From: Allolobophora icterica
Lineage: Eukaryota > Annelida > Clitellata > Crassiclitellata > Lumbricidae
Assembly: GCA_963556255.1 (NCBI GenBank)
Contig: OY744613.1
Coordinates: 51,389,949 to 51,453,948, forward strand
Length of the DNA stretch: 64,000 nt
Direction of reading: 5' to 3'
Positions 2,004 to 32,444 of the stretch are shown here, in pieces. A program made the position numbers and the translations under genes. The notes under the pieces are model-generated. The model worked only from the letters and a program-made list of their open reading frames with translations. It was not told the DNA's origin and did not search any database. Each line of letters begins with the position of its first letter. Positions within the stretch are counted from its first letter, which is position 1.

Positions 2004-2446
<443 letters not shown>

Positions 2447-4047: not shown

Positions 4048-4640
4048 ATGGTTGGTTGTACTGCACCAACTTGCCGCAACAGATCTGAGTAAGCAAGGCC
4101 GTAGCTAGTGGGGTGTTTTTGGTGTTTAAACACCCCCCGAAATGTAAAAATGAAATGTAAAAATGAAATAATCCATTTACTAACTACAAACCCCTTGGTC
4201 GGTTGACTCGGTTGCACGTCGGCTTGCTCAAGGATGCGAAAACACCCCCCGAAACAGAAAACACCCCCCGAAACAAAATCCTGGCTACGGCCCTGTGAGA
4301 AAGGCATGACATTTTGCTTTTTTCTAGCAGAAAAAGACCGTAGAAAAATATAGTTGATAAACTGCCGACGGGATATATGGGCTCCGACTTTGACAAGTTG
4401 TCTTCGTGAAGAACATTTTGATGCTAGCCAGTTTGAGAGCTGGATGAAACAGAAATCATCTGCCATACCCACGATATTTTCTGTTCCCAATCCACCACAT
4501 GTACTGCAATGAAAACGAAGAGTTTTGAAGCATCGCTTCATAGATGATGAAGATAACACCTCCGTGAAGGCCCAACGCACTGCTGAAGAACACAGCTATG
4601 CCAAAGTTCACATGAAAGAGGGAAATTCAGGTATGCGCAC
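4048..4640 (+). pseudogene. THAP-domain gene fragment (pseudogene)
   Basis: A start at 4048 gives MVGCTAPTCRNRS, the C2 part of a THAP zinc finger. After an intron-like gap from the GTAAG at 4089 to a pyrimidine-AG near 4327, frame continues with the rest of a THAP domain: WAPT, HFDASQFE and the closing AIPTIF motif (about 4375-4480). THAP domains are C2CH DNA-binding modules found in host factors and in P-element and Kolobok transposases. Two in-frame stops, TAG at 4351 (where THAP has its conserved Trp) and TGA at 4510, break the frame, and the exon phases do not join cleanly. A short MITE sits in the gap. I call it a dead transposase or host-gene fragment. Confidence 0.6.
4096..4294. mobile_element. 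Short MITE, GGCCGTAGC ends
   Basis: Terminal inverted repeats AGGCCGTAGCTAG (left) and CTGGCTACGGCCCT (right) enclose about 200 bases rich in ACACCCCCCGAAA blocks. It lies in the gap of the THAP pseudogene. The target duplication could not be made out. Confidence 0.5.
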
Positions 4641-4649
4641 CAATGTTAC

Positions 4650-7256: not shown

Positions 7257-9591
7257 CTTAAAGTGTTGTTATAACTTAAATATCGCATTCAACTTTCCGT
7301 TTCCTCTGCTTTTCGATATTACTGGGATATGGCTCTAGTTTACAAATGACTGTGTCTGTCACTGTTTTACAATAAGGCTCAGAAAAATTACAAGAAGAAT
7401 GCCATAGTTTTAAGACCGTTAATGTCTATCAGATTAATGACATGGACACCAACACTCCATATATTCGTAAGTCTTGTGACAATAAAATCAGTCCATGTGA
7501 AATCTACGAGAGCCTGTAAGTAACCTGTCTCAGATTTTGTTGTAATTTTGATATTTAGTAGCTTGATATGCTTGTATATCATAGTGACATTTCCAGAAAC
7601 CTATCGCCATGTATCTTTATTGTATGGCTGACGGGAGTGGATGGGGTGTTCGAACTTGGTGACATGTTCGAAATTTTGGAAGCCTATGTGCACCTGTTTA
7701 CGAGATACTGGCCAAATCTGAGATTGGTCACTTACAAGGCATATCTCATATTTGATGATTTAACATGGATGTACCCAATATAAACAATGCACCGACTACT
7801 GTTCAGTGCAACGGAACAATACAGTGTGCGTGTACTAGCATCTGCTTCATCACAAGGTAAATTAATTTACCATTTAGAAATTAACTGTCCAAGAACTCCT
7901 GTGCAATCGAGCATATGGCGATGCACTATATTCCAGAATAAGGAACAGAAATAGAATCATATAGACATAATACATTATATCTTGTAATACAATAGCTGAT
8001 AGACTGATACTGCTAAAAGTTTGCACACTTGAGTTTTCAGAAATGCAATATGGAAGAGACGAGGCCACAAAGATCCAAACTGACGGCTTCTACACGTTGC
8101 AAACAGCATGAAACAACAAAGCCAAGATCCAAGTAGACAGCTGAAGTGGGAGGAAGAGTAAACTTCCAGAAGCTGGTCTTGAGCACAGGAAAAATCCTAC
8201 CTCCCTCATCCTGGAAGGACAGGGACTAGGGTTGGGTAGCCGGCTCGCACTACCCAAACTCGGCTCTAAGACCCGTAGAAAAACTTTTGTATATGTGTTT
8301 TAGAGAAACATTTGCTCTTTGTTTCTTGCCTCACTTGAGAGTTGCATATAGACTGACGTGAGCATTGATTATGGTAAACTCACGGGAGTGTTGAACAGGT
8401 AAAGACTTACTTTTTCTTTTTTTATTGATTTGTGGACTGTTCTTAAACAGTGACTTCGCTATGAAACATGTGCATGTTTTTGTTTTGTCTAGAGACTGAG
8501 TTTAGCGTTGCATGTAGACTTGTAGATGCACTTTGGTGTTAATTATTTAGACTGATTAGAGTGTGAAATGTATCTGTCTTGAGGGCATTTTATTTATTTT
8601 CCATTTATTTAGTATTGAAAGGGTTTGGGCTGCTATGTACTTGCAACCTCTCCATGCTTTTTGCTAATTGAGACTTGCTTGTTTCTCCACGTCTGTTTCC
8701 TTGATTTACTTGTTCAGAATTCAGGGGCCTTTTTGCACAGCTGTCTGATTCTGCCTTCTCTTCATTTCTCTCCCTCAGTTTCATCTTTCTTACCATATGG
8801 GCTTCTTTCTCTCTATCTTGTTATGTGTCTTTGTTTCTGCCTGAAGCCTTCAGATCCACTCTAAACTACTTATTCGAGAAGGCATACTAATGACTCGTGT
8901 TCAGAATACTGTGCACACAAAAGTGGGCTGGTTCATCACCATCATCATGTTCTTTTGATGGTTTGCCTTGTTGCTGGTGCAGAAATCCAATATTGCCATT
9001 TATCTCTCTCCACAGTCTAGTCTTTCGCACGGCCCAATCTTCTATCTAATAACTACTGTCACTTTAGCTGTTTGTCTAGTGTACTCGCGGTAAGTTAAAA
9101 ATTCTCGTTTTATGAAATTGGGAATTTCGAGTGCTTGATTGTGCCGAAATTAGTAGCTTCAAGGCTTGCAATGAATGAACTATGGAGACCGTTGCAACCC
9201 CTCCTCGTGGTGGTCTCTGGGCATGCGGTTGGCAGTTAGCTAGCTGCATGGCGTGGATTGGCAGTACATATTCCAAAATGTAATAAATGAAATTTTATGC
9301 GTATCCGCTCTTAATCTTTTTCTAACCCACGTTAAGCATGATATATTTTTAACCTGCTGGTCCATTTCCTAATTGTGTGAAGTTTTGGGTTGTAGAAATT
9401 TGTGCAATGTGCCTGCTTTAGCCTTTAAATGAACAATAATACAGAGTTTTGCAAAGCATGTCCCAGTCACATTCAGTCATAATGACTACACAGGACCAAT
9501 ACACTGCCAGTGGGAAGATCAGGGCAAGAACTGTCCATTGGTGTCCAACCATCCTCATATGCCTAGACTTAGGAAAAAGAATTTGATAACA
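7257..9591. other. Unassigned sequence
   Basis: No gene, RNA or element ends recognised. Several 60-80 codon open frames (for example near 8625 and 9076) have no motif and look like noise. One CGGTTGCAACC-like patch near 9190 is GC-richer than its surroundings but gives nothing further. Confidence 0.4.
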
Positions 9592-14042: not shown

Positions 14043-16636
14043 CTAAGTAAGGTTTTCATAAAATCCTTTATGTTCTTTAGGAACTATGGAACGGCAAAGT
14101 TCAAGCAGATCTGCAAGCTTGGCACGATTGATTGGTATGGAACACTGATACTTTTGTTTTGGAGTACTTCTGTCAGTCGAAATTCGAGTAACAAGTGGTT
14201 GCAGTTCTGTTCCGTGAGTCAGCGTGTACTGCATCCCATCCTTAGAGTATTTGAAATGTTTCACATCAGTCACCATAGCATCTCCGGAATTTCTTCCTGG
14301 GCGGATAGATTTGAGAAGCACAGGAAAGTTTCTCCAGAATGAATGATCCAGAGAATGTACATTGTATGGTTTCGTATGTCTAGCAGTTTTAATAATAGTC
14401 TCCCATTCTATTGGTGTGTAAACTTCAACATGTCGATCTTTCTGTTCTATGGTGGCATGAACACTGTCTACCTCCATTTGTGTGTGGCCTCGTACAAGAT
14501 ATTTCTGATGAATTTCTTTGAGGTTAGGTTTCATGTTACTGCGTAAGAAATAAAGCAGAGCTGAAGAAATTGTAGCATTCCTGTTCTGATAGGTGCATCC
14601 ATCAGACCATAGTATAACAGTCTCTATGGTTTCTGGCAAAGTACTTAGGTATTCGGTCAGAAGTGTAGCAAATTCTGATGCTTCCAGTCCACCTTCTCCC
14701 TCATGCCAAACGTAACAGTCGACATTGGATGTACCCAAATTGTACACAGTGAAATTGTGTACGGCTAATTTCCTTTTGTAGTACGTGGCAGATGAGAGGC
14801 TCTTAGGACAAAGAAGAACTTGCTGTAGATCCACTGCTGCTACTAGAACTGTCTGTGGGTTTGCTAAGGCAACCTTCTTATCAGCTTCTTTGCAGTTTCT
14901 GGCTAAATCCTTTTCACGTACATGATCCATCCAAATTGGTTCTTCTATTAAACCATTCTTGTGAGCTAAGCATCGATCACACTGATCTTTGAGTGGGGTG
15001 AAAAAGGAATAGTTCATTGAATGAAATATGGTAGAGAAAACTTTCACTGATACCGGTATCTTGGGTGGTGTGCACAGAGAGCACTCAGATCTATAAAGCT
15101 CAAACAGTTTTGCAATTGACAAGCCAGGCTCCAAATACAACTTACTGCTATTCTTCTGCAATAGTGAGATGGGACAACAGGCATTCTTTTTATGAAGTCT
15201 TTCGTAAAAGTCTCCTCAGCTTGTGGTGTCTTATTTGGTGCTGGCCTCCCTTTTCGACCATCAGGTGGTGCAGCAGCAGCATTATCTAATAAATTTGCAC
15301 GCTGAACTGTACCCCTTATGAATGCCTCGCCCAAAGCTGTTGTCTGTAAGAAAAACTTCTTGCAAACGCTGATATTGTTCGGATAGTCAGGTTTTGGAAA
15401 GTTATAATGTGTATGATTGCTGCCTTCTACTGGCATGTGACACAGTTCTTCTTCTTGCTGGCATCTGCTTTACATGTGATACAACGAAATCTCTTTTTCT
15501 TTCCCACGATACATTCCAAATTTGTTTGAAAATGTTTTCACGTTCTTCGGATGTAAACTTTACCAGACAGCATTTACAGGTTGCATTTCTCATCTGTTTG
15601 TTTTCTCCATGCATTCTCTTTAATTGGTTAATATTTTTTTCCAACTTGTAGGATCTGCACGACCTCTTTTGTTTCGTTTTCTGTTACGATTTACTAGATC
15701 ACTGAGAATATGGTTGTCTGACTGCACTGCATTGTTAGCCTCGACGACTGAATGCAGTGTGTTACTCTCTATGGCAACCAACTGAAGGGCAGCATTGTCT
15801 TCGATGACTGGCTGATCTGTGTTACTCTCTATGGCAACCAACTGAAGGGCAGCATTGTCTTCGATGACTGGCTGATCTGTGTTACTCTCTATGGCAACCA
15901 ACTGAAGGGCAGCATTGTCTTCGATGACTGGCTGATGTGTGTTACTCTCTATGGCAACCAACTGAAGGGCAGCATTGCCTTCTATGACTGGCTGATCTGT
16001 GTTACTCTCTATGGCAACCAACTGAAGGGCAGCATTGTCTTCGATGACTGGCTGATCTGTGTTACTCTCTATGGCAACCAATTGAAGGGCAGCATTGCCT
16101 TCGATGACTGGCTGATCTGTGTTACTCTCTATGGCAACCAACTGAAGGGCAGCATTGCCTTCGATGACTGGCTGATCTGTGTTACTCTCAATGGCAACCA
16201 ACTGAAGGGCAGCATTGCCTTCGATGACTGGCTGATCTGTGTTACTCTCTATGGCAACCAACTGAAGGGCAGCATTGCCTTCGATGACTGTCTGATCTGT
16301 GTTACTCTCTATGGCAACCAACTGAAGGGCAGCATTGTCTTCGATGACTGGCTGATCTGTGTTACTCTCTATGGCAACCAACTGAAGGGCAGCATTGTCC
16401 TCGACGAGTGACCCAACTATCATATTGTCGCCTTTGATTATTTCATTTGCAGTTTTGGCCACATGAATTCTTGTTACACTCAAGTTCTTTGATTTACGTT
16501 GTAACTTAGAGGTTCTATGCGTTTCACTGCTTATTCTTTTTGCCTGCTCTATTTCTAACTTTTCTCTCTTTCTCTTAAGTGATGTAGGCAGGTACTCTTC
16601 TGAATCATTACTATCATCAGTATCGTCCATAAGCAT
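14043..16636 (-). pseudogene. DUF7869-type transposon-like gene, frameshifted
   Basis: On the minus strand four blocks in different frames line up as one protein. From the start near 16636 come an acidic then basic N-terminus, eleven 20-residue repeats, and an RKRNKRGR-DPTSWKK motif (about 15650). Then come a cysteine-containing block with SEERENIFKQIW (15402-15600), a block with CKKFFLQTT and PVVPSHYCRR (15160-15436), and a long C-terminal block (14043-15161). The last holds KDQCDRC, the acidic motifs AVDLQQVL and LWSDGC, and MEVDSVHATIE. This architecture matches the widespread invertebrate DUF7869 proteins, thought to be transposase-related RNase H-fold proteins. Breaks lie at an A-run near 15635, near 15405 and near 15160. 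Some could be sequencing errors in homopolymers. It sits inside the left outer arm and may have been that element's own gene. Confidence 0.75.
15753..16412 (-). repeat. Coding minisatellite, 11 x 60 bp
   Basis: Eleven tandem 60-base units with exact length, each giving a 20-residue unit of the pattern E-D/G-NAALQLVAIESNTDQPV-I on the minus strand. Most differences between units are single bases (for example GTCT versus GCCT, making Asp/Gly). The low divergence means recent expansion by unequal exchange or slippage. The plus strand is also open through the array because 60 is divisible by three. Confidence 0.95.
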
Positions 16637-16749
16637 TTCTAAAAGAACATAATTATGGACTCGTATAAATTATAAAATAATTGCTAAGAAAACTTGGACA
16701 TAAATTTGGTACTCATAGCTGCTAACTCTGGTTTTAAATTTCTATAGTA

Positions 16750-17345: not shown

Positions 17346-17383
17346 GGGACATCAGCTCAGCATTGTGGGCAAGCTTAAAATAC

Positions 17384-17415
17384 GGGTGCTACGAAACGTC
17401 GGGGCGGGGCGGATC
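17384..17415 (+). repeat. MULE left terminal inverted repeat
   Basis: 32 bases, starting GGGTGCTACGAAACGTC and ending in the GC-rich GGGGCGGGGCGGATC. Identical in reverse complement to 32251-32282. The GC-rich inner half could also serve as GC boxes for the gene that starts 76 bases further in. Confidence 0.95.
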
Positions 17416-17430
17416 CTCGGGGTACAGTTT

Positions 17431-17461
17431 CATTGGTCAGCACGATCACGTGCGTGATCCG
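17431..17461 (+). promoter_or_regulatory. Proximal promoter motifs of the MULE gene
   Basis: Between the terminal repeat and the ATG at 17491 lie an inverted CCAAT box (17432-17436) and an E-box CACGTG (17447-17452). The E-box lies within the palindrome GATCACGTGCGTGATC (17445-17460). No TATA box is visible. The CCAAT plus E-box pair also occurs at 772-784, and an E-box GTCACGTGAC lies at about 53028 in the right outer arm. Confidence 0.45.
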
Positions 17462-17490
17462 AGGAATCGGAGACGTTCTCAATGTAAAAC

Positions 17491-20400
17491 ATGGCGTTGT
17501 TCAAGGCGGAAAGTTTAAGTGTTGAGAAAGTCGTAGAACTTTTACGGGGAGAGCGATCACACGCCGTTAATCGATTGTTCAAACCTAAAGGAGGTGAAGT
17601 GTTCCTTATAAACACACACGGCGGAAAAAACAGTAAGTTTGTGCACATAAGTATTATAATTCATTCAATATTCATGTCAACGGTGATTTGGTTGTTGGGA
17701 TTTGCTTCTTAAAATGCCGGTGACTGCTATAGTTATCGGATTAACACTGCCTTCGCTTATTATTACATGTGTAATCTGCAACACTGTAGCCTAATTAGTA
17801 GTCTCTGTTACGCCATTGCCCACCCCCAGCCCTGGGTGCTAAGTCAGTCTGTTTAAATGGGGCGGGTACGCGTCTTCGCAAGTCCATGGAAGGAAGAACC
17901 TGTATTTCAGTGGGGTGACCTGATTCTTGAGCATCAACGGGATCTGCTGGGATTCTACTCCAGCGGTTCCCTAGCTCGTTATAATTTAGCCTCGATTTCA
18001 TCTGCAAACGTTCACTCCTTCTGATCGAGGGTGGAGGGGCACATGTCTGCAAGGATATTTCTGTCAAATGCATTGGTTTCCAGTCGGCAAAATTACTGCA
18101 TCTCGCTTCTTACTGGTAGCAATAAGCCAAACATGCCGATGTTGCCAAATTCGTAACTCTTTGGCTAGCACCAAATACATACACATATAAGTAACATATT
18201 TATCCTCTGTGATAAATATTTGCATTGGCATCCTGTTCAGCAAGGAATTAGTTTACAAATTGGGGCTCATGGTTAATCAATTCTTATTTCCCAGACTTAT
18301 CATTATTTAATGAGGTCATCATTTTGGTGCAGGCATCTGATGCCTTGTGCGTTAGGTGCAATAGAAGTTACTAATTGCAATTACGATTTTATCAATGCTT
18401 CAAGTAATAAGTTACTAAAGATCACTGTCAACTTGTGTCAAGTATGCCTACACTAATGCAATGTACATGTACACACTCATGAGTTGCGATCAAAGTACAA
18501 AATTTTGATTTGTCCAAATTATTTTGAAAATCTATTTTGAGAAGTATTTTCAAAATATGTTTTCAAAGTATTTTCAAAATACTTTTGAAAAGTATTTCAT
18601 TTTGTATTTTATATGCTTCTCCATCTTTAGCAAGCACATGATATGTACAGGTAATAAGCCAATGATCATATTTCTTTTCCCTACACAGATTGCAAGAAGT
18701 GTAGCCTCACCTTATATCTGTTCTTTCGTTTTATTACAGAAGATTGGTTGGCCGATGGCTATCGATTCCGGCAGAATGGCTCAAGTTTGATTCCACGGAA
18801 CCAACCATTGATTAAGAAAGTTCATTATCAGATCTATCTGCCGGATGGAAAAAGAGGAATGTTCAAGAAATTTGTGTTTGAGCAATTGACTGAGCGTGAC
18901 TTATTGGTTGTACATTATGTCGGTGATGAGAAGGAGGCTGTTGATTTTCCTCATGGTAATAATAATTTTTTATTTGCAACAGTTTTACAACTAATGTACT
19001 ACTTGAGTGAAGTGCTTTCTATTAACAAGACATAGTCTCCAGAAGTATTGATGTGTAATGTATTAGTTTAGTTGTATGATGGTGATAAGTCAGTCGGAAG
19101 TCCAGGATTAAACTTTCAGTTGTCACTCCGTTTTTGACTTATCCAGCAATCTTATGACCATTTCTGGCAGCTAGTTTCCTAAGCTAGAATTTGTTGAAAC
19201 TCCCAAATTCACGGCTGACCAAAACTAATTTATGGCCGGCTACTTGGTTAAGCCGGATTTAAACGTGAACTGATATTTATGACTTATTGCAACAATTTTA
19301 ACTACTAATTAAATAATTTTATGAAGAAGGTATTATTTCAATGGCATTGTTGTTATTATAATGTAATTTTAGTTACTGAAATTAATACAGTTCATGTTGT
19401 AATTTATTTGTGAATTACGTAATTTAGTTATTCATGAAATAATAATATTAGTTCAATGAATATTTAACAATAATCAGTAATCTTTATTGCCATTTGACAA
19501 TTGTCTCCAAAATCAGGACTGGCTCTCCTGAAAAGTTATCAAGAGCTAGTGGATATTCCAATTGTGGATGGCGTTGAATGCACAATGCACATGTTTCAAG
19601 CAATATATATATACGTCCAATTCGTAACAATTAGATATCAACAGGTTATTGAGATGTGTTACTACAGTGACACTGCCAACTTTTGAGTTACCAGTTAGTT
19701 AATTTTAATAGCTATGTAGTAGATATATAATTGTTTCATATTTGTAACCAATGATATCAATATAGCACGCATATATTACCTGTTTTCAAAGCACTTTGAC
19801 AACTTTGAAAGTCGCTAAGTCGATTAACTGTAACCATAGTAGCCCTACCTTTATTATGCAACTGCAATAGTTTTATTATTTATAATCATTAAAAGTCGAA
19901 GTCTTTGTTATTTGCAGGTAATTCAACACGAGGCGTAAACTTTCTACAAAGCGCACCTTCTCTGATTACGAAGCTTAAAGTAGGTGATGATACATTCAAG
20001 AATGTTCTTATTGGCACAACAAGTGAGCCTATACAGTTTCAGCCGAGAGATGTAAATCAGGTGTCTTACTTTAAGACTTATGTAAACTCAGCCGCTAAAG
20101 TGTCAAAGGACAACTTCGTAGCACTGCATGAGTTGGCCTACATGCTGCAAGGTTTCGTGTGGTCGATCACAACTTATCCAGATTTGATTGTGACCTGCGG
20201 TATGCTCTTCTTTACTGAACTGATGCAGAAGGCATCATTGTATATGTTATCATACGATACTACATTTAATCTGGGAGATTTCTACTTGTCAGTATTGGTC
20301 GCTCAAGTTGAATGTTTCGCCGAACACCCCTGTTTTCCGGTGGCATACCTCATTCATGACAGAAAATTTGAAGAAACTCATCTGACATTCTTCAAGAAAC

Positions 20401-23400
20401 TCCAGAAGCACGTGACGTGTAGTTTCACGCCTATAATTGTCACCGATGGGGAATTGGCTGCCATTAATGCGATTAAGTCAACATTTCCGCATTGGAACAC
20501 AGTGTCTTGTTGGAACCACATTCTGACGGATGTAGAAGTGTGGCTTAAGAAGCACCATGTTGGTGCATCAGAGATCGCCATATACAAGAGCACCATTCGT
20601 GAACTTTTACAATGTCTAACTTTGGATGAATACAATACCAAACGTGAAACACTGAGTAGTACGTGGACTGAATTGTTCAAGGATTATTACACAAAGTTCT
20701 TATCAAGGAGAGTTTTAACTTCGTATGCTGGCTACCTGAAATCATTAAACATCTCCATGGAATCGGTGACAAACAATATATCTGAATCATTTAATGGGGT
20801 TCTTAAGCGTCATCAGGACTGGAATGAAGTATCTGTCGATTCGATGTTATTGGTCTTGTAGAAGCTACAGTTATTCTACAAATCTCAAATTGCGAAGAGC
20901 CTTCAAGGATTTGGACCATATACTCTTGATATCACAAAGACATGTGGTTAGTAGCATCTAGGAACATTTCTTCTCTGCACTCTTTCACCTTCTGCTTCTA
21001 CAGCACTTATCCATGCTTTTGTATTCTCTGTTCTGGACTACTGTTCTCTCTAAGTTGGGCTTCCTCACTTTCCTCGGTCTTCTTCTTCTGATGGTCGCTC
21101 TGCTCTTCTTCGCTCCTCAATGGGAGTGATTATTGTCTCCCTTTTCTCGCACTGCTATTATGCAGTGTTCAGCTTTTTCAGTTGTTAGCCCATCGTCATG
21201 GAATGATCTATGTTCCTTCCTTCGTCTTTCTCATCATACTATTTCCTCTTCTTTCTATGCTCTCATAAAGACTATCTTTGTGACCAGGCCTGGCTGTGGA
21301 GCGCCTTTGAATAGAGATCTTGAAGAGGCGCTATATAAATTTCCTGAATTGATTGACTGATGACCAATAATTACTGTTTGATGGCAACAGCTGAGAACAA
21401 TTGATATTTGCCTAGTTATAGGCATACCACGAGTTGCATTTATAAATAAACGCCTCTGAGTAGTTAGTGCTGATAACCAGCGCTTGAAAAATTTTGCGTG
21501 GGCCTATACAATACAAACAATACAAATTGACGGCACAGTCTTATGTGTGTAAAATGATGAAATGAAGTCATAGTGTATCTGTTTTCCTTGTAGGAATTGA
21601 TATGCTGGTGGATAAAGCTCAAGCTGCCCACATCAACACTGAAGACGACATTAACAGTATGATGGACAGACTAAGAGCATCTCTGTGTGGTGATACCAAA
21701 CAACCTATTCCTGCATCCATTAATGTGCTCGCCAGCAGCCTGACAGTATGCCACATTCCACAGCAGCAGGTGTTCTTAGTCTCGACAGATGGTGGCAATG
21801 CCCATGCAGTGCATTTGTTTCCAAAGGAGTCCTGCACGTGTCCGGTGTCAAAGAGGTGTTGTCATATCATTGCATCTATGCGAAGCATTGGGCTGGCTGT
21901 TGCTGAACGTAAAGTGCTGACACTGAGCACGTTGATGAAGAAGTCAAGGTATGTGATATGCTTTGTGTGTAAATAACCACAATGAATTTAGGCCAAATTT
22001 TGCATGTTGAATGACTGTTGAATGAATTATACAACAGGGGACTTCTTTATTGCACATACATCTCATCTCAGCATATGCTATTCTGATTTCGCATAGTTTG
22101 GCATACACGGACAGATGTTGGTTAAGAGATTAGCAGTTTCTTGGGGGATTTCGATTAAGAGATTAGCAGTTTTATCGAGTGCTTATTTGTTTTAAGTTAA
22201 TAGTATTTATCTAGTTCATTTATGTAGTATATAGGTACTGTACAGTTCCTATCCCTTTACAGGAAAAAGGGGGACAAAGTTTCAGGCCGGAAGAAACCTC
22301 GTCAAGGTGATATGACTTACATAGCTGCTATGGACAGTGAATGTACATTACAGTAAGTATATAGCCAGCATTTGTTTCTTACATGACTTATTTTCTGTCT
22401 AGAAATGATACTGCTCATAAACGTAGCATTATGTATATGCATAATATAAAAGCAACCAACAGAACATGTCATTGTAATATTGTATCACAATAGACACTGC
22501 CTTTACTGACGAAATTCTCTACCGTGACTACGATGTCATAATTAAAATGCTGTGTTAGTCATCAGTTTTCTTCAGAAGGTATCTGTCAATTTACTATGTC
22601 AAGTATCCTAAGGTAAACATTTTTCATAAGCACAATTTGATTAAATATATTATATTCCGTGATGGGCAAAAGTTAAATAAGAAGTTTCAAACTATGTTCG
22701 TTAACTATAATCTGTTTCATTGTTGGCTGTGTTAGTCTTGTATGCATTCCATGTGGTTATCAACTTTCAATAGGCTGTCCTATGTCGGAGCAATTTACTG
22801 TGGTATAGTTCATCTAGCAATAAATGTATATAGTAGACATTATTGTTATTCATATATTGGCTAGGATTTTACAATATATGTATGCTTTGTTGTCAGGACA
22901 CCAAAAAGAGTGAACTTCGTATCAACTACAATAACACCAATCAAGTGTACGACACGGTTAGTTATGTATGTAGAAATGCCTATTACAAATATCTGTTGTT
23001 ATTAGCTGCTGTTATTGTGCAACATAACTGAATAGCGTCACTCCATATGAGTATATGATGTTTCTGTGATTAGATGATCTAGGTTATGCAACGGAAAGTT
23101 AGACCCGATCAGCATATTTGCATTGGCAATGTTTGTAATCTTTTCCTGGCGAACGTGTGCTCACTGCGATAGTTGTGCAGCCTCTTGTTTATATCTAATT
23201 GCTCTTCATCTGGCGGCTGACTAACCACGCCTCAGATTCGCATTTCTGTGTGACCTTGCGCACGTTAAAAATGTTTTTAATAATTAATAATAATGATCTA
23301 ACATCGTGCAATATGACATTTCTGTTAATATGCAGCAATGAAGGACTAAATGGTGATGCATCTGTTACCCACTGTGTTCCGATAGTGACATCAACACCTA

Positions 23401-25713
23401 AGAAAATTAGAGAAACTGAAAGGTTAGGCGGAAGATTATACATTTATTTTTAGTCAGTATGTACTCATTGATACGAAATTAAAAATATCAAGATGGATCT
23501 TATCTAATATCTTGTAAGCTGTTCAGAACTATTTCATCTTCTGTTACATCGACCATTGAAAAAGAGTTCAGAGTCATTTTAACATAAATCGTCATGTTTC
23601 AGCCACTTTCGAGGCTATTAATGCGCGATTTCATGCATTTAACAACTATCTCATGAAAAAACCTGACCTGGACACCAAAAGCCTGTCAAACTTTAGACCC
23701 ATTTCCAACCTTAACAACATTTCTAAGATTCTCGAACGTCTCTTCCTCACACGGATCAAAAAGCACATTACTTCATCTCCTAATTTTAGTCCTTACCAAT
23801 CAGGTTACCGTGAAGGCTACTCTACTGAAACTGCCCTTGCCTTTACCCTGGACAACATCTTCTCATCTATTGATAAAGGAAACGCGTGCCTCACAGTTTG
23901 CCTCGACCTTAGTGCTGCTTTCGACACTGTCGACCACCAGCTTCTACTCTCTAGACTCAGCAAAAGCTTCGGTGTCTCTGGGACTGCTTTAAATTGGTTA
24001 GCTTCCTACCTCTGCAATCGGTCTCAACAAGTGGGTATCGGTACTGCTCGATCGGATCCTTCTCTGCACTGCTGGTGTCCCTCAGGGTGCTGTTCCACGG
24101 TCCCCTATTATTTACCATCTTCACATCACCAATTAGTCGCATAGCCAATCACTCAAAACTCATTACTTCTCACTGGCTTTCAAACATATTTATATCTAAT
24201 TGCTCTTCACCTGGCGGCTGACTAACCGCGCCTCAGATTCGCATTTCTATGTGACCTTGTGCACGTTAAAAATGTTTGTAATAATAAATAATAATAATGA
24301 TCTAACATCATGCAATATGACATTTCTGTTAATATGCAGCAATGAAGGACTAAATGGTGATGCATCTGTTACCCACTGTGTTCCGATAGTGACATCAACA
24401 CCCAAGAAAATTAGAGAAACTGAAAGGTTAGGCGGAAGATTATAAATTTATTCTTAGTCAGTATGTACTCAGTGATACGAAATTGAAAATATCAAGATGG
24501 ATCTTATCTCATTCATTAAGTTCACCTAATAAAGAATTGGTTAGTGATTCGTTAATGACGAACTAATATCTTGTAAGCTGTTCAGAACTATTTCATCTTC
24601 TGTTACATCGACCATTGAAAAAGAGTTCAGAGTCATTTTAACATAAATCGCCATATTTCAGCCACTTTCGAGGCTATTAATGCGCGATTTCATGCATTTA
24701 ACAACTATCTCATTGAACATACGACACCGGCATGAGCAATTGACTTTGCTCTTGATTTCAAGATCATTTCTGTAATTACCGTAATTTGCTTCCTGGCGAA
24801 CGCGTGCTCACTGCGATAGTTGTGCAGCCTCTTGTTTCATACTTTCAGGATTGTTGATGACACAATAAACTGCTCTAAGCTGCGCGCGGCAGCTGATGCT
24901 ACATTGGACGAAGAAGTGCTGCATGAAGCCTTGAATGCAGCTGATGACACAGAAGATCCACTCTGGATCCCTGAGCTATTCCTGCACCAGTCAGACAGGA
25001 ATATATTGGAAACAGAGAGAGAATGGTTAAACGACAGGATAATATATGCTGGTCAACTGTTGATCAAGCAAATATGTCCTGATGTTGGAGGCCTGTCGGA
25101 TCCGCTCTTCGCGGAGGCTCTGCGTCTCCATTGTAAAGGTAAAGTGTTTTGTCAGGTACTTTACAATGGAAGCCATCACTGGATAACGGCTTCATCAAAA
25201 AACTGCAGTGAAAATGTCGTACGTGTCTACGATGGAATGCATCAGGTACCGTCCGTCGCTATAAAGCAGCAGATAGCAGCACTTTGCCTCAGTTCCGAGC
25301 CAACAGTTCATATACAGGGCATGAACGTTGAACGGCAGAGAGGCGGCTTTGACTGTGGCTTATTGGCATTAGCATACGCGACAAGCATTTGTATGGATCA
25401 GGATCCGGTCAATATTGTGTATGAACAGACACGACTTAGAGCACATCTTCTTAACTGTATAGTGGCGCAGAAGATCACATTGTTTCCAGTTAGTTCATAC
25501 AGAAGTGTCCGAAAACCAATCTCATTCAGTTCTCGTGACAAAATTTATTGTTCATGCAGACAGCTGTATGTACCAGGTCAGGGCATGATCCAGTGCTCGT
25601 CATGTCACGAGTGGTACCATCCAACATGTTCTGCCTTATCTGACAGTGCGTTTGACAAGGCAGTGAAAGATAAACGCCAGTCTTACTTGTGTTTAGCGTG
25701 CCAGAGCATGTAA
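17491..25713 (+). CDS. MULE transposase with CG-1-like, SWIM, Ulp1 and PHD domains
   Basis: Exons: 17491-17632, 18740-18955, 19918-20946, 21594-21948, 22263-22352, 22897-22956, 23336-23422 (or 24340-24426), 24849-25713. All junctions are GT-AG and all phases agree, giving 948 codons. Residues 8-115 resemble a CG-1 DNA-binding domain (GGEVFLIN, DGYRF, LLVVHYVGDE). Residues 230-410 are a MULE DDE core: D233 in SYDTTF, D296 in VTDGE, C317-x2-H320, E409 in NISESFNG. A SWIM finger C543-x-C545-x5-C551-x-H553 follows. After a basic linker comes a C48 cysteine protease (WLND; H770, D788, Q823, C829), then a C4HC3 PHD finger (893-944). The only lesion is TAG at 20859 (codon 434), so the copy is either a very young pseudogene or uses readthrough. 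Exon 7 is duplicated. The protease may cut SUMO-like substrates; this is inference from family. Confidence 0.88.
17688..17812 (+). repeat. 125-bp direct repeat shared with 33649-33772
   Basis: In intron 1, a block starting TTGGTTGTTGGGATTTGC and ending near TAGTAGTCTCT is about 97 percent identical to 33649-33772, outside the MULE. The outside copy directly follows a LINE open frame, so this is probably the 3' part of a LINE, inserted here as a short truncated copy. Confidence 0.8.
17813..18110 (-). other. Possible retroelement ORF fragment, antisense
   Basis: On the minus strand a 92-codon frame (17795-18073) contains PPSIRRSERLQMKSRLNY, a basic motif of the kind found at the ends of retrotransposon pol proteins. 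It lies in intron 1 of the MULE gene. The family is not identified. Confidence 0.3.
20985..21362 (+). pseudogene. L2-like LINE 3' end in intron 3
   Basis: The translation gives the usual C-terminal LINE pattern around SAFSVVSPSSWNDL (about 21165-21210), followed by GAGGCGCTATATAAAT and a TTGATTGACTGATGA tail. It is 5'-truncated and lies between exons 3 and 4 of the MULE gene, where it does not disturb the splice sites. Confidence 0.65.
23143..24837 (+). repeat. Segmental duplication carrying exon 7, split by a LINE
   Basis: The block 23190-23652 is repeated at 24194-24716 with few differences; the second copy has 54 extra bases near 24495-24548. Both copies contain the same 87-base exon with intact splice sites. 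A 45-base block (TTCCTGGCGAACG...) at about 23145 is also repeated at about 24790, on the other side. An L2-like reverse transcriptase fragment lies exactly between the two long copies. Confidence 0.85.
23653..24190 (+). pseudogene. L2/CR1-like reverse transcriptase fragment
   Basis: The frame encodes the front half of a non-LTR reverse transcriptase: FRPISNLNNISKILERL, YQSGYREGYSTETAL, then the first catalytic motif LDLSAAFDTVDH, and LNWLASYLCNRSQQV. The frame shifts near 24055, before the YADD motif, and the element is cut at both ends. It lies between two copies of a duplicated MULE segment. Confidence 0.85.
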
Positions 25714-25839
25714 ACATAAGGTCTGAGCTTGCACGTTCGGCTAAGTAGTAGGTGACTGTTAAAGGTTATATGCGAAATTCTTGAGCTATTCCGTCTGAAA
25801 GCATACTTTACATACATATATATATATATATATATGTAT

Positions 25840-26460
25840 ATGAACATATATAGGGGAGAGTGCTCCAAGATGCCCAGGGCGAATAAGATGCCCACCCCCT
25901 CTAAAACGTGTAGAAAGATACAAATTCGTATTTTAGTTGTGTCTTTGCATGTAGCGACATCTTATGAACCTTACTTAGCAGCAGCATTTCAGTATTCGAG
26001 ATATTGGCGTGATTATTACATTTTTTCAATTTTGACTACTTTTGCGCAAGTACACATTTATGAAACTGCTTCATTTTCTCCGTAACCTTAGTTACTACCC
26101 AGGCGCGCATTTCAACGTTTATTTTGGGTCCATTTTTAGTTCTTTTGATGCCTTTTTCAAACTTGTAAACATTAACCTAGTGAAATAAAATGGCGTCAAT
26201 TGAGAGGGACTCGAAAATTACAAGAAGCCCATGGGCGTCTTGAATGTATAGGAAGCACAGAGGTTACAAGATGCCCATGGGCGTCTTTGATACCTTGAGA
26301 ATCTTAAAGTATCATCTTTGGATCATATGATCACTCCAACCAAGATATGGTACAGGCGGTCTTGCATCTGTGTCACACTCGTCTCAACCTGTCGATAAGT
26401 GATTCTGACATATCCTTTGCTCACTACATTCCACAAAAAGTGGAAACATATGCCGACCCA
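25840..26460. other. Unassigned repeats of GATGCCCA words
   Basis: After the MULE gene, AAGATGCCCAGGGC and GATGCCCATGGGCGTCTT-type words recur at about 25868, 25888, 26225 and 26270, partly palindromic. They look like remains of an older repeat and have no coding sense. A short AT microsatellite lies at 25817-25836. Confidence 0.4.
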
Positions 26461-26462
26461 TC

Positions 26463-26747
26463 TTGATCAAATTCACTTCTCGTAGAGTGCGCAACATGGT
26501 CTTTGCAGCTAAGAAGTTGCTTCGTCAGTCATCTGGGCAACCTCAACACAATAATGCACCGGTCTACATCAATGAAAACCTCACAAAACCCAATGCAACA
26601 GTTTTTGCACAGGCACGCAATCTGGTCCGCAACAAACGTATAGCCTCTGCCTGGACCGCAGGAGGCATCACCTGCGTCAAATTCAAGGATCTTCCTGATG
26701 AAAAGCCAACAAAAATCCTCTGCTTGAAGGACCTCCCACAAGGTTGA
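26463..26747 (+). pseudogene. LINE ORF1/gag-like fragment
   Basis: The 94-codon frame contains RRVRNMVFAAKKLLRQ, then YINENLTKPNATVFAQARNL and a short W-x-x-G-GITCVK segment. This pattern, in which a basic helix is followed by 'NENLT...F..AR.L...', is common to the ORF1 or N-terminal part of invertebrate LINEs. No start or continuing frame is visible, so it is a fragment. Three short GATCAACTTTTGTGA repeats follow at about 26784-26817. Confidence 0.5.
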
Positions 26748-26819
26748 ACTGTCTAATATGGAAACTTCTATCAACTTTTGTGAGATCAACTTTTGTGAGA
26801 TCAACTTTTGTGAGTTCAA

Positions 26820-28240
26820 TCACAATTTCCATTTCCAAAGCAGGAGTAGAAGGCAGAGTATCATATCAAACTATATGTCATTACCTGTCATTTTTCTTTA
26901 TTATTGAACTTGTCTTGATTCCATATATTGACCTCCATCATTGATCATCTTATGAGTTCAAAAGATCTCTATAGCCAAGTCACTAACAAGGGCAAAAGGC
27001 AAATTACGTAGTATACTATTCATCAATATCTGCATTGTTTATATTTCTTAGCTTATGGAACTTGATTTGATGATGATTATTGACATGCATTGTGAACATT
27101 TTGTCTATGCTAGATGAAGAGCATCTTTTGATTTATGAACTTGTTTTGATGTTGATTAGCGTTACTGACTATCCTGACCCTCATCATTGACCTTTCTGTA
27201 AGCCTACTAATGATTATTGTAATCTAGACAGGTCATCATCTGGGTTGGAAGGCATAAATACCTGCCTCTCTTTTTTTTACCTTTGGACTTGACATATTGT
27301 CTACTGGTTTATGTTGTTATCTGCTGGTTTACGTGTTATTTGCTGGTTTTTACTGTATGCATTTTGGAAACTCAACCTCTTTGGCCAGGTCTATATACAA
27401 GCAAGAGTAGGTAATCAACTATGCATAGTAATCATTTTGTCAGTACCTACATCTCTCATTGAGTGTTGAATACGACTTGATATTTATTACTCAATTTTCT
27501 TATGAGCACTTCTTGACTTACATAACATTAAAACGGCCTTATTATAATTTATGAACTTGATGTGGAGTTGTTTACTGGCTTGTCCTGACCCTCTTCATTG
27601 ACCTTTCGGTAAGCATTTTGTGTTTACTATGACGTTTCTTTTTTTACCAGGAAGTTGGTCAATACTGTGAGCATTTTCCGAGTATGTTCAACATATTTTG
27701 AAATGTCTTTGATATCACATTGAGTTGGATGTACAAGTTAACATCAATGCTATGTTATGAACAGTGATACTCCCATGTTCATTGCAACCTGTTATGGATT
27801 ATCTCACATTATCTCACATTACCTAAACAACACAATTCCAACTTACTACAAAAATTCCCACTATTAATCTTACGTAATTAACCTAACCAGTGCTTTCTCT
27901 AATTGGAAATTTGATATCACTAGATTGTCTTTCTGTAAGTACAGTGCAATAAACAGCAGATGGTCTGATTTAACTTAGTTGAACAGGCATGGTCAATGAT
28001 CATTATACCAGTTGCTGTTGTTTTCTTAATGCCACACACCATGTTTTAACTGCTCCTATCTAATTCGAATGATGGAGTATTATTCCAAATGCAGCTCAGT
28101 ATAATTTGCACTAATGAATTTTATTCAAACTCAAGCTCCCTTATTGCCTATGGGTTTAGTGTGTTGTTTTGTGGGATAACCCCACCCTTTATTTGAGACT
28201 TGTATGTCTCTTTTAGTGAAGAATTTGATAGTTAAGAATT
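26820..28240. other. AT-rich MULE interior, no gene
   Basis: No supported reading frame. A phrase TATTGACCTCCATCATTGA / CTGACCCTCATCATTGACC recurs at about 26925, 27175 and 27590 with TTTCTGTAAGC or TTTCGGTAAGC behind it, so this stretch contains an old dispersed tandem of roughly 250-400 bases. Confidence 0.45.
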
Positions 28241-31200
28241 GTTAGTTTCTGCCCCGAGCCTTTAAATAGACACCCCAACTCGTTAGTTTCTGCCCCGAGC
28301 CTTGAATTAGACGCCCTGACTCGTTAGTTTCTGCCCCGAGCCTTGAATTAGACGCACTGACTCGTTAGTTTCTGCCCCGAGCCTTGAAGTAGACGCCCCA
28401 ACTCGTTAGTTTCTGCCCCGAGCCTTGAATTAGATGCCCCGACTCGTTAGTTTCTGCCTCGAGCCTTGAAGTAGACGCCCTGACTCGTTAGTTTCTGCCC
28501 CGAGCTTTTAAATAGACGCCCCGACTCGTTAGTTTCTGCCCCGAGCCTTTTAATAGACGCCCCGACTCGTTAGTTTCTGCCCCGAGCTTTTAAATAGACG
28601 CCCCGACTCGTTAGTTTCTGCCCCGAGCCTTGAATTAGACGCCCTGACTCGTTAGTTTCTGCCCCGAGCCTTTAAATAGACGCCCCAACTCGTTAGTTTC
28701 TGCCCCGAGCCTTGAATTAGACGCCCCGACTCGTTAGTTTCTGCCTCGAGCCTTGAAGTAGACGCCCTGACTCGTTAGTTTCTGCCCCGAGCTTTTAAAT
28801 AGACGCCCCGACTCGTTAGTTTCTGCCCCGAGCCTTGAAGTAGACGCCCTGACTCGTTAGTTTCTGCCCCGAGCTTTTAAATAGACGCCCCGACTCGTTA
28901 GTTTCTGCCCCGAGCCTTGAATTAGACGCCCCGACTCGTTAGTTTCTGCCTCGAGCCTTGAAGTAGACGCCCTGACTCGTTAGTTTCTGCCCCGAGCTTT
29001 TAAATAGACGCCCCGACTCGTTAGTTTCTGCCCCGAGCCTTGAAGTAGACGCCCTGACTCGTTAGTTTCTGCCCCGAGCTTTTAAATAGACGCCCCGACT
29101 CGTAAGTTTCTGCCCCGAGCTTTTAAATAGACGCCCCGACTCGTTAGTTTCTGCCCCGAGCTTTTAAATAGACGCCCCGACTCGTTAGTTTCTGCCCCGA
29201 GCCTTGAATTAGACGCCCTGACTCGTTAGTTTCTGCCCCGAGCCTTTAAATAGACGCCCCAACTCGTTAGTTTCTGCCCCGAGCCTTGAATTAGACGCCC
29301 TGACTCGTTAGTTTCTGCCCCGAGCCTTTTAATAGACGCCCCGACTCGTTAGTTTCTGCCCCGAGCTTTTAAATAGACGCCCCGACTCGTTAGTTTCTGC
29401 CCCGAGCCTTGAATTAGACGCCCTGACTCGTTAGTTTCTGCCCCGAGCCTTTAAATAGACGCCCCAACTCGTTAGTTTCTGCCCCGAGCCTTGAATTAGA
29501 CGCCCTGACTCGTTAGTTTCTGCCCCGAGCCTTTTAATAGACGCCCCGACTCGTTAGTTTCTGCCCCGAGCTTTTAAATAGACGCCCCGACTCGTTAGTT
29601 TCTGCCCCGAGCCTTGAATTAGACGCCCTGACTCGTTAGTTTCTGCCCCGAGCCTTTAAATAGACGCCCCAACTCGTTAGTTTCTGCCCCGAGCCTTGAA
29701 TTAGACGCCCTGACTCGTTAGTTTCTGCCCCGAGCCTTTTAATAGACGCCCCGACTCGTTAGTTTCTGCCCCGAGCCTTGAATTAGATGCCCCGACTCGT
29801 TAGTTTCTGCCTCGAGCCTTGAAGTAGACGCCCTGACTCGTTAGTTTCTGCCCCGAGCTTTTAAATAGACGCCCCGACTCGTTAGTTTCTGCCCCGAGCC
29901 TTTTAATAGACGCCCCGACTCGTTAGTTTCTGCCCCGAGCTTTTAAATAGACGCCCCGACTCGTTAGTTTCTGCCCCGAGCCTTGAATTAGACGCCCTGA
30001 CTCGTTAGTTTCTGCCCCGAGCCTTTAAATAGACGCCCCAACTCGTTAGTTTCTGCCCCGAGCCTTGAATTAGACGCCCTGACTCGTTAGTTTCTGCCCC
30101 GAGCCTTTTAATAGACGCCCCGACTCGTTAGTTTCTGTCCCGAGCTTTTAAATAGACGCCCCGACTCGTTAGTTTCTGCCCCGAGCCTTGAATTAGACGC
30201 CCTGACTCGTTAGTTTCTGCCCCGAGCCTTGAATTAGACGCCCCGACTCGTTAGTTTCTGCCCCGAGCTTTTAAATAGACGCCCTGACTCGTTAGTTTCT
30301 GCCCCGAGCTTTTAAATAGACGCCCTGACTCGTTAGTTTCTGCCCCGAGCCTTTAAATAGACGCCCCGACTCGTTAGTTTCTGCCCCGAGCTTTTAAATA
30401 GACGCCCTGACTCGTTAGTTTCTGCCCCGAGCCTTGAATTAGACGCCCTGACTCGTTAGTTTCTGCCCCGAGCCTTGAATTAGACGCCCCGACTCGTTAG
30501 TTTCTGCCTCGAGCCTTGAAGTAGACGCCCTGACTCGTTAGTTTCTGCCCCGAGCTTTTAAATAGACGCCCCGACTCGTTAGTTTCTGCCCCGAGCCTTG
30601 AATTAGATGCCCCGACTCGTTAGTTTCTGCCCCGAGCCTTGAAGTAGACGCCCCGACTCGTTAGTTTCTGCCCCGAGCCTTGAATTAGACGCCCTGACTC
30701 GTTAGTTTCTGCCCCGAGCCTTGAAGTGGACGCCCCGACTCGTTAGTTTCTGCCCCGAGCCTTGAAGTAGACGCCCCGACTCGTTAGTTTCTGCCCCGAG
30801 CCTTGAATTAGATGCCCCGACTCGTTAGTTTCTGCCCCGAGCCTTGAATTAGACGCCCTGACTCGTTAGTTTCTGCCCCGAGCCTTTTAATAGACGCCCC
30901 GACTCGTTAGTTTCTGCCCCGAGCTTTTAAATAGACGCCCCGACTCGTTAGTTTCTGCCCCGAGCCTTGAATTAGACGCCCCGACTCGTTAGTTTCTGCC
31001 CCGAGCCTTGAAGTAGACGCCCCGACTCGTTAGTTTCTGCCCCGAGCCTTGAATTAGATGCCCCGACTCGTTAGTTTCTGCCCCGAGCCTTGAAGTAGAC
31101 GCCCCGACTCGTTAGTTTCTGCCCCGAGCCTTGAATTAGATGCCCCGACTCGTTAGTTTCTGCCCCGAGCCTTGAAGTAGACGCCCCGACTCGTTAGTTT

Positions 31201-32080
31201 CTGCCCCGAGCCTTGAATTAGATGCCCCGACTCGTTAGTTTCTGCCCCGAGCCTTGAAGTAGACGCCCCGACTCGTTAGTTTCTGCCCCGAGCCTTGAAT
31301 TAGACGCCCTGACTCGTTAGTTTCTGCCCCGAGCCTTGAATTAGACGCACTGACTCGTTAGTTTCTGCCCCGAGCCTTGAAGTAGACGCCCCGACTCGTT
31401 AGTTTCTGCCCCGAGCCTTGAAGTAGACGCCCCGACTCGTTAGTTTCTGCCCCGAGCCTTGAATTAGATGCCCCGACTCGTTAGTTTCTGCCTCGAGCCT
31501 TGAAGTAGACGCCCTGACTCGTTAGTTTCTGCCCCGAGCTTTTAAATAGACGCCCCGACTCGTTAGTTTCTGCCCCGAGCCTTTTAATAGACGCCCCGAC
31601 TCGTTAGTTTCTGCCCCGAGCTTTTAAATAGACGCCCCGACTCGTTAGTTTCTGCCCCGAGCCTTGAATTAGACGCCCTGACTCGTTAGTTTCTGCCCCG
31701 AGCCTTTAAATAGACGCCCCAACTCGTTAGTTTCTGCCCCGAGCCTTGAATTAGACGCCCTGACTCGTTAGTTTCTGCCCCGAGCCTTTTAATAGACGCC
31801 CCGACTCGTTAGTTTCTGCCCCGAGCTTTTAAATAGACGCCCCGACTCGTTAGTTTCTGCCCCGAGCCTTGAATTAGACGCCCTGACTCGTTAGTTTCTG
31901 CCCCGAGCCTTCAATTAGACGCCCCGACTGGTTAGTTTCTGCCCCGAGCCTTGAAATAGGCACTCTAATTTATTGCCCTGAGCCTTGAATTAAACGTCCC
32001 AATGCTGCCCCGAGCCTTGAAATAGGTGCCCCGTCATGTTAGTTAATTCTGCCCCGAGCGTTGGAAATGACGTCCGAATA
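28241..32080. repeat. 41-bp satellite, 90 in-phase units
   Basis: The unit starts GTTAGTTTCTGCCCCGAG, followed by a variable part and GACGCCCCGACTC. Units begin exactly every 41 bases from 28241 to 31931 (90 periods, checked at several places), followed by decayed units to about 32080. The middle part occurs in about five types (CCTTGAATTAG, CCTTGAAGTAG, CTTTTAAATAG, CCTTTAAATAG, CCTTTTAATAG). These are arranged in places in a 205-bp five-unit higher-order repeat (29323, 29528, 29733). The GCCCCGA core resembles the inner part of the adjacent terminal repeat. Confidence 0.97.
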
Positions 32081-32250
32081 TCGCCCAAGGTGTACTTTAA
32101 AGCTTTTTACGACCAATTTCATGGTTAAGCTTACATATTACAATTTCACTTATTCCCTCTGTTCAGTCAATGCCGAGTAGTGCCTGTGTATCTACTTACT
32201 TACTTACGTAATCCGCCCCGAGCTTTCGTAGTTATTTGCCCCGCCCCGTC

Positions 32251-32282
32251 GATCCGCCCCGCCCCGACGTTTCGTAGCACCC
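32251..32282 (-). repeat. MULE right terminal inverted repeat
   Basis: Identical to the left repeat in reverse complement, ending GTTTCGTAGCACCC. Just inside, a diverged second copy of its parts (AGCTTTCGTAG and GCCCCGCCCCG at 32221-32248) suggests the end was duplicated once. Confidence 0.95.
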
Positions 32283-32444
32283 TTAAAATACTTTCGAAAA
32301 ACATTGTCGCATCAAATCGAAAATACATTATTCTGATAGGGTTGCCGAAAATAAATTGTATTACAGAACTGTAGGTTCTGTAGTTTTTATTGCAACCTGT
32401 ACTGATACTTTTTTCCCAATAAATAAATAATAATACATGTGGAA

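Follow-up and report, generated by a model that had tools for sequence, protein, structure and literature searches.

According to the accessible part of PMC2836005 (2010), Ulp1 is present in Mutator elements of hydra and lancelet. In the legend of Figure 1e of that paper, the transposases of Ginger1 and Mutator are named as bearing Ulp1 and PHD domains, and a Mutator row of the figure likely carries PHD. Rehavkus elements have a 9-bp target site duplication (TSD), a terminal inverted repeat (TIR) of 26-400 bp, a PHD finger and a minisatellite ahead of the 3' TIR (PMC6446971). Only a very small number of them is known, with descriptions in Repbase alone, and their tabulated hosts belong to Arthropoda and Annelida only (PMC6446971). 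The element studied here occupies positions 17384..32282 of the window, a 64,000-nucleotide stretch of Allolobophora icterica DNA, and the initial annotation regarded its fusion of transposase and further domains as unusual for an animal element. That judgement is not supported in view of the Ulp1 of the hydra and lancelet Mutators (PMC2836005, 2010) and the PHD finger and minisatellite of Rehavkus (PMC6446971). The element is known in kind, since Ulp1-bearing animal Mutators and the Rehavkus combination of 9-bp TSD, PHD and minisatellite have already been published. We read the locus as a Rehavkus-like Mutator (MULE) DNA transposon and, taken jointly with the DNA-binding, chromatin and SUMO mechanism proposed below, consider this reading quite probable.

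Ends, related copies and the subterminal array

The 5' TIR (17384..17415, + strand) and the 3' TIR (32251..32282, - strand) are each 32 bp long and agree in 32/32 bases. They are flanked by the unstranded TSD TTAAAATAC, whose left copy (17375..17383) and right copy (32283..32291) match in 9/9 positions. The limits, the identical inverted ends and the perfect duplication first reported are all confirmed. So is the occurrence of further copies that have these ends and duplications of 9 bp, which the initial annotation had proposed to look for. In the host genome (1.12 Gb) the first 28 bases of the TIR have 40 matches with ≤3 mismatches, both ends taken together, and the reversed 28-bp end, used as a control, has 0 at the same threshold. 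Pairing of end matches ≤15 kb apart gave 13 inverted pairs, with a perfect 9-bp TSD in 9/13 and an 8/9 match in two more; among the remaining pairs, one has an 8-bp duplication by eye and one is without any TSD. Fourteen ends were unpaired, and 9/14 of these were inspected. The remaining long copies that were examined derive by deletion or replacement and retain ~130 bp on the 5' side together with the 3' end. Exon 3 and exon 8 were each found as a single complete copy in the host genome, as might be expected if the gene were domesticated for a host function and not a transposon gene. However, the gene is enclosed by intact TIRs and a perfect TSD, both ends are common to other copies, and it carries a stop codon; domestication is therefore hardly credible.

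Near the 3' end of the transposon is a 41-bp minisatellite of 90.7 copies (28241..31959, + strand), missed in the initial annotation, whose unit consensus has a 9-mer in common with the TIR. This shared stretch, CGCCCCGAC, is equalled in 14/2000 shuffles, where the numerous copies of the 9-mer within the array count as one event and not as independent ones. TRF detects the array near the 3' TIR in 8/10 other long copies, and one of the 10 is without it. This distribution bears on the possibility that the element is an ordinary Mutator of the hydra and lancelet "MuDR with Ulp1" type, in which the minisatellite is an incidental expansion and the likeness to Rehavkus a convergence. The closest named relatives are indeed Hydra proteins (41% identity), and Ulp1 is known in hydra and lancelet Mutators from the accessible part of PMC2836005. 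Yet the array is retained in most of the long copies, its unit has the TIR core and, with the PHD finger and the 9-bp TSD, the array fits the published description of Rehavkus; this alternative is rather unlikely. We keep the Rehavkus-like assignment, and the labels Rehavkus and hydra-type MuDR may denote overlapping lineages.

Gene structure and the premature stop

The element was initially called complete, with an eight-exon gene of 948 codons. The exon sum (2844 nt, equal to 948 codons) and the splice phases stand, and all seven introns are GT-AG; the frame, however, is interrupted by an in-frame TAG at codon 434 (20859..20861, + strand) that had been overlooked, and at the protein level the element is not complete. 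All exons lie on the + strand. Exon 1 (17491..17632) contains the start codon and the first part of a CG-1-like domain, and exon 2 (18740..18955) the rest of this domain with the DW..DGYRF..HYVGDE..PHG signature. The intron directly 5' of the conserved DW motif coincides with the point where the predicted ORFs of many relatives start. Exon 3 (19918..20946) encodes the MULE DDE domain, the codons of D233, D296 and E409 starting at 20256, 20445 and 20784, respectively, and exon 4 (21594..21948) encodes a SWIM-type CxCx5CxH motif at 21833-21865. Exon 5 (22263..22352) was placed by splice sites and phase and has a basic GRKxPR motif also found in relatives. The basis for exon 6 (22897..22956) and exon 7 (23336..23422) is splice sites and phase only. 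Exon 8 (24849..25713) encodes an Ulp1/SENP-type protease and a PHD finger and ends in the stop codon.

Codon 434 is the only premature stop, and the aligned relatives have an ordinary residue there in 8/8. The nearest paralogue in the host genome, an internally deleted copy (C20) with 95% identity across 562/1029 bases of exon 3, also has a sense codon at this position. Splicing around the TAG was rejected as a way out, as the donors at 20852 and 20857 are by reckoning out of phase with the acceptor at 21594. Because of the TAG, the full protein can not be obtained from this copy by ordinary translation; the copy is a fossil with respect to the full protein, mobile in trans at best. An otherwise intact copy with an error of sequencing or assembly would agree with the intact DDE residues and downstream frame, the undamaged TIRs and TSD, and the TAG being the sole premature stop. 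The surroundings of exon 7 argue otherwise. A second copy of this exon (24340..24426, + strand) has the same translation, without an amino-acid difference, and between the two copies lies a reverse-transcriptase fragment (23560..24141, + strand; PF00078, 2.2e-16), both missed before. These features suggest decay of this copy, and we regard an error as improbable and the stop as probably genuine.

Domains of the encoded protein

The MULE DDE domain matches PF10551 at 3.9e-8 (34.1 bits versus a cut-off of 27.6), and D233, D296 and E409 are invariant across 9 aligned sequences. With a MULE DDE domain, TIRs and a TSD of ~9 bp all present, the element belongs to the Mutator/MULE superfamily. In many Mutator/MULE members a SWIM zinc finger follows downstream of the DDE core. 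Here the CxCx5CxH motif of exon 4 reaches 13.8 bits against PF04434, below the cut-off of 19.6, and SWIM is matched at E≤1 by 13/32 scanned relatives. The Pfam comparison proposed in the initial annotation had a mixed outcome, with PF10551 and PF00628 passing their cut-offs, PF04434 falling below, and PF02902 (C48) without a match at E≤10 for exon 8 alone.

The N-terminal consensus of the transposase family matches CG-1 (PF03859) at 9.7e-8 (32.2 bits, cut-off 23.5) over model positions 8-114 of 116, and CG-1 was absent from 3 shuffles and a reversal of this consensus. The element's own N-terminus has no PF03859 match at E≤10, its only hit being DUF4174 (18.5 bits, below the cut-off), and the relative P0074 is likewise without a CG-1 match. 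Individual relatives were scanned as a set of 32/123 proteins chosen by a D...W...G motif near the N-terminus, from which a few other motif-bearing proteins judged off were excluded by eye; CG-1 was found at E≤1 in 9/32, and 3/32 also matched WRKY. A fold model of the relative P0002, made for the whole protein and not for the CG-1-like domain alone, has one helix and five strands. Fold matches include WRKY domains, with AtWRKY18 at E 2.4e-3 in a search in which the domain was not queried alone. In one search at least 1/5 of the rows shown cover model residues 193-467 only, so that the CG-1-like part was barely tested in it. CG-1 is assigned to the WRKY/GCM1 clan in PMC9252788, where, in the accessible text, transposons are named only in a cited title, and the "Cg-1" in the accessible text of PMC3169594 is a gene name. 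A CG-1 domain paired with a MULE transposase was not found in the literature searched, and an earlier notice is possible in Babu et al. 2006. Judged by its consensus sequence, the transposase family has a CG-1-like domain at the N-terminus, a putative link between the family and the CAMTA transcription factors. Viral contigs gave 39 pattern matches, none of them confirmed as a relative.

The protease domain (C48 type; 25018..25488, + strand, limits approximate) was delimited by alignment profile and fold model. A single-sequence PDB search with exon 8 returned PHD and no SENP. An alignment profile of the exon 8 module retrieves SENP1 at 2.9e-11, a match that may be driven by the P0005 row with its strong C48, and the fold model of exon 8 (mean pLDDT 75.8) resembles SENP5, Ulp1, SENP1 and SENP2 with E from 4.5e-6 (SENP5) to 5e-4. 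The catalytic H-D-Q-C residues are present, encoded on the + strand at 25177-25179 (H), 25231-25233 (D), 25336-25338 (Q) and 25354-25356 (C); the Asp is replaced by Cys in the relatives P0001, P0009, P0011 and P0056. Profile and model identify an Ulp1/SENP-fold (C48) protease with H-D-Q-C, predicted to be of SUMO type.

The PHD finger (25549..25701, + strand) matches PF00628 at 8.2e-6 (26.2 bits versus a cut-off of 24). EBS, DIDO1, PHF8, PHF2 and BPTF are among the closest to it, and EBS is its best PDB sequence match, in an entry titled as an H3K27me3 complex. Exon 8 residues Y233, Y240, M246 and W255 align with the Y, Y, M and W of EBS, and we take these cage positions to be those used by PHF2/PHF8 and EBS for H3K4me3. 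The second cage Tyr is missing in the relatives P0001, P0011 and P0056. By alignment, the PHD finger of the element retains an H3K4me3-type cage and is a predicted reader.

The long introns, the duplicated exon 7 and the retroelement fragment that precede exon 8 might suggest that protease and PHD form a separate gene, of the host or of another element, adjoining the transposase. The relatives argue against it. P0001 (910 aa), which is 36% identical across 92% of the query, has the same one-chain order, P0005 carries MULE, C48 and PHD each above the Pfam cut-offs in one protein, and in P0027 and P0048 the protease and PHD module also follows the transposase in the same chain, in P0048 with a macro domain between. 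As relatives carry transposase, SWIM, protease and PHD in this order in one protein, exon 8 is part of the same gene. The one-chain order initially described is upheld, and the adjoining-gene explanation is very improbable. Some relatives add a macro domain. Named relatives include Hydra and Mytilus; P0007 and P0008 are not among the 120 of 205 relatives listed.

Proposed mechanism and relation to known systems

We propose that the CG-1-like domain, together with SWIM, would bind the TIRs as well as the array, whose TIR-core sites would act as subterminal binding sites, and that the DDE core would cut and paste. The PHD finger, with its H3K4me3-type cage, would steer the transposase to H3K4me3-marked promoters; the chromatin targeting suggested in the initial annotation is now narrowed, as a prediction, to this type of cage. 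The protease may act on the transposase or on local chromatin or repair factors, stripping them of SUMO or a different ubiquitin-like tag. A broader view is that of an animal MULE lineage in which a true homologue of the CAMTA CG-1 binds the ends, the lineage's own sites have been amplified as a subterminal minisatellite, and swappable C-terminal modules (macro, SUMO protease, H3K4me3-reading PHD) read or edit the marks of target chromatin. We put this forward tentatively, at somewhat less than an even chance. If true, CG-1 would join FLYWCH and FAR1 among the DNA-binding domains that occur in host transcription factors as well as in transposases. A connection of CAMTA with transposases can be tested through the CG-1-like domain and would add to the story of the WRKY/GCM1 clan. 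With an H3K4me3-type PHD and a SUMO-type protease in one transposase, the choice and preparation of targets by a cut-and-paste element become testable with isolated domains. The locus also supplies the anatomy of a Rehavkus-like element along with a group of its copies in a single genome, the subterminal array with the TIR core being retained in most derivatives examined.

Ginger1 elements (e.g. Ginger1-9_HM) resemble the element in their C-terminal Ulp1 and PHD, but have a Gypsy-like integrase core and a 4-bp TSD according to the accessible part of PMC2836005; the MULE core and 9-bp TSD found here rule out membership. A module 31% identical to exon 8 occurs in P0010, which by reading is integrase-like at its start. 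Plant MULEs with ULP1, cited in the same accessible text and likened here by description, also combine MULE and Ulp1 protease, in plant hosts. Tm1 Mutator/Foldback elements share a mostly 9-bp TSD and tandem repeats in the termini, whereas their repeats of 13-15 bp lie inside both TIRs, their hosts are nematodes and PHD is unmentioned in the accessible part of PMC3169594. The hydra and lancelet Mutators likewise join an animal MULE transposase to Ulp1 and probably PHD, but the accessible part of PMC2836005 does not mention a minisatellite or a CG-1-like domain, both of which the element has. With Rehavkus it shares the 9-bp TSD, a 32-bp TIR (within 26-400), one gene, a PHD finger and a minisatellite that precedes the 3' TIR, a likeness to the published description and not to a sequence, no Rehavkus-named sequence being among the relatives listed. 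The tabulated Rehavkus hosts are Arthropoda and Annelida only, whereas named relatives of the present transposase include Hydra and Mytilus. The Rehavkus table lists the PHD finger and the minisatellite only, and to these the element described here adds SWIM-type, protease and CG-1-like parts.

Ends, gene model and copies in the host genome

The TIRs of the element (17384-17415 and 32251-32282) are identical in 32 of 32 bases, and an inverted-repeat search gave 42-nt arms at the element ends with a complementarity of 93%. The TSD, TTAAAATAC, agrees at 9 of 9 positions between its two copies, and the ends and 9-bp duplication described in the initial annotation are confirmed. Eight exons chosen from splice sites, with GT-AG introns, total 2844 nt, or 948 codons. 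The same annotation had this codon count right but overlooked an in-frame premature TAG at 20859-20861 (codon 434), which lies 25 codons downstream of Glu409, a putative catalytic residue; all eight aligned relatives carry an ordinary residue at this position. Within 23143-24837, exon 7 and the adjoining intron are duplicated at 95-99% identity, with a reverse-transcriptase fragment between the copies.

Relatives of the transposase in Hydra and Mytilus suggest that the host is an animal. Searching the host assembly (1.118 Gb, 328 contigs) with the outermost 28 TIR bases, allowing as many as three mismatches, gave 40 matches (21 forward, 19 reverse), and the reversed 28-base control gave none in the same search. 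End matches within 15 kb formed 13 inverted pairs including that of the window, and 14 ends were unpaired. A perfect 9-bp TSD flanks nine of the 13 pairs; the MULE recognized initially has further copies with the same ends. Two other pairs have TSDs matching at 8 of 9 positions, one shows a duplication of 8 bp on visual inspection, and one, of 11.8 kb, has no TSD. Two of the nine perfect cases are 59-bp palindromes made only of two abutting TIRs (C2:54652196-54652254 and C4:86655156-86655214 of host genome G000; 1501-1559 in both fetched loci, L009 and L014). Their identical flanks suggest that they are perhaps one insertion, duplicated later. That the element is a member of a transposon family is virtually certain.

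Ten other long copies have about 125-140 bp of the 5' end and the 3' end in common with the window copy. The window coding exons found no match in these ten at the threshold used; one of them, L046, contains 5000 N. Among the best candidates scored, exon 3 as DNA matched only the window and one copy on contig C20 (95% over query 468-1029), which is internally deleted, with 17630 joined to 20385. The C20 copy is the only other one covering codon 434 and has a sense codon there, so the stop is not common to both. A third copy, L053, retains the 5' end and 18042-18883. Exon 8 as protein gave 24 matches among the best candidates scored: the only full-length one at 100% is the window's own, one is a 46-aa fragment at 80%, and 22 are at 26-34%. 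Neither the exon 3 DNA search nor the exon 8 protein search found a complete open copy among the best candidates scored.

MULE domains are abundant in the host genome (402 first-look candidates, of which the best 150 were scored), and the scored rows include runs that share both their score and their ORF length, a pattern like that of multicopy families. Elsewhere in the window, a 349-aa ORF at 15620-16669 (-) contains a 60-bp repeat (10.8 copies, 97%) encoding a 20-aa repeat, with a Pfam Vault repeat that is perhaps a chance match. A 390-aa ORF at 14046-15215 (-) matches DUF7869 at 3e-6, and Ty3-like retroelement ORFs lie at 48322-51702 (+), with RT and RNase H identified by Pfam at 49329-50507 and the remainder by eye.

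The minisatellite beside the 3' TIR

The minisatellite at 28241-31959 comprises 90.7 copies of a 41-bp unit, and 90 units have a mean identity of 95% to the consensus. The unit and the TIR have the 9-mer CGCCCCGAC in common; as an independent test, base-shuffled units shared a 9-mer with the TIR in 14 of 2000 trials. The same 9-mer occurs 45 times on both strands of the 64-kb window against 0.05 expected, all within the element, with one in the 5' TIR and the other 44 lying toward its 3' end, a count that is descriptive because repeated units represent one event. TRF detected the array in eight of the ten other long copies, where it numbers between 2.6 and 21.7 units; L040 is without it and L041 holds a remnant. 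The array is therefore a family feature adjoining the 3' TIR, and the transposase may bind it.

A second, distinct 48-bp minisatellite is present in L047 (element 2013-7644, 117 units) and in a contig C5 copy (L043 and L044; 4121-10376, 130 units), with a match of 99-100% among the units. In the C5 copy the 4-bp unit AGTG is also repeated about 600 times.

Domains of the transposase and its relatives

The domains assigned initially fared differently in Pfam. MULE (PF10551, 34.1 bits versus a cut-off of 27.6) and PHD (PF00628, 26.2 versus 24) passed, whereas SWIM scored 13.8 bits, under its cut-off of 19.6, with the CxCx5CxH motif present, and the window protease alone had no C48 match. An alignment profile of the protease nevertheless found SENP1 at 2.9e-11 and Ulp1 (1EUV) at 8.8e-7, matches that may be driven by the row of P0005, a relative with a strong C48 domain of its own. 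A fold model of the window exon 8 (24849-25713, +; mean pLDDT 75.8) matches SENP5, SENP3, Ulp1, SENP2 and SENP1 (best E 4.5e-6), and His110, Asp128, Gln163 and Cys169 are all in place. Exon 8 almost certainly contains an Ulp1/SENP-type protease fold. The N-terminal domain of the transposase family is probably a CG-1 homologue.

The PHD finger is closest to those of EBS, DIDO1, PHF8, PHF2 and BPTF. The matched PDB entries of DIDO1, PHF2 and BPTF are H3K4me3 complexes and that of EBS is an H3K27me3 complex, in which the mark is read by the BAH of EBS and not by its PHD. Tyr233, Tyr240, Met246 and Trp255 of exon 8 align to Y, Y, M and W of EBS, positions that presumably form the cage. The PHD finger is somewhat more likely than not to read H3K4me3.

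The one-chain fusion of the initial annotation recurs, with protease and PHD in the transposase chain of four relatives. P0001 (910 aa) aligns across 92% of the gene model, with the protease-PHD exon at 34%; P0005 has MULE, C48 and PHD each over cut-off; Mytilus P0027 (984 aa) has PHD over cut-off and MULE, C48 and CG-1 under theirs. P0048 joins Macro, C48 (at cut-off) and PHD after a transposase core that has no Pfam MULE call yet scores 565 bits by family profile. Precomputed Pfam assignments for the best 120 of 205 relatives, many of them short, include PHD in seven, C48 in three and Macro in three; Macro was seen in P0048, P0022 and P0040. The protease Asp is Cys in P0001, P0009, P0011 and P0056, so activity may be lost in those relatives, with His kept, and Gln and Cys kept where covered. 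The second cage Tyr is absent in P0001, P0011 and P0056, and P0048 keeps all four cage residues.

Reading function from the anatomy, folds and mobility established here, we infer that the CG-1-like domain and SWIM would likely bind the ends and the array, and that the DDE domain would likely carry out the cutting step. The PHD finger would likely direct the complex to H3K4me3 chromatin, and the protease would likely remove SUMO.

Comparison with known transposons

Ulp1 is reported in Mutators of hydra and lancelet, and the Figure 1e legend names Ulp1 and PHD domains for Ginger1 and Mutator transposases (PMC2836005). Rehavkus is described as MULE-like, but with a PHD finger and a minisatellite preceding the 3' TIR, and is tabulated with a 9-bp TSD and TIRs of 26-400 bp (PMC6446971); Rehavkus-1_TC has satellite repeat at its termini (PMC10218199). 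On these accounts, a transposase-protease-PHD fusion is not new in kind, and the initial view of it as unusual is not upheld (PMC2836005, PMC6446971). As in Ginger1 (PMC2836005), a related module, 31% identical to that of the window element, also occurs in P0010, a protein that reads as integrase-like at its start. No description combining Rehavkus anatomy with C48 and a CG-1-like domain was found in the literature searched, and this combination is a variant. The element itself is probably Rehavkus-like.
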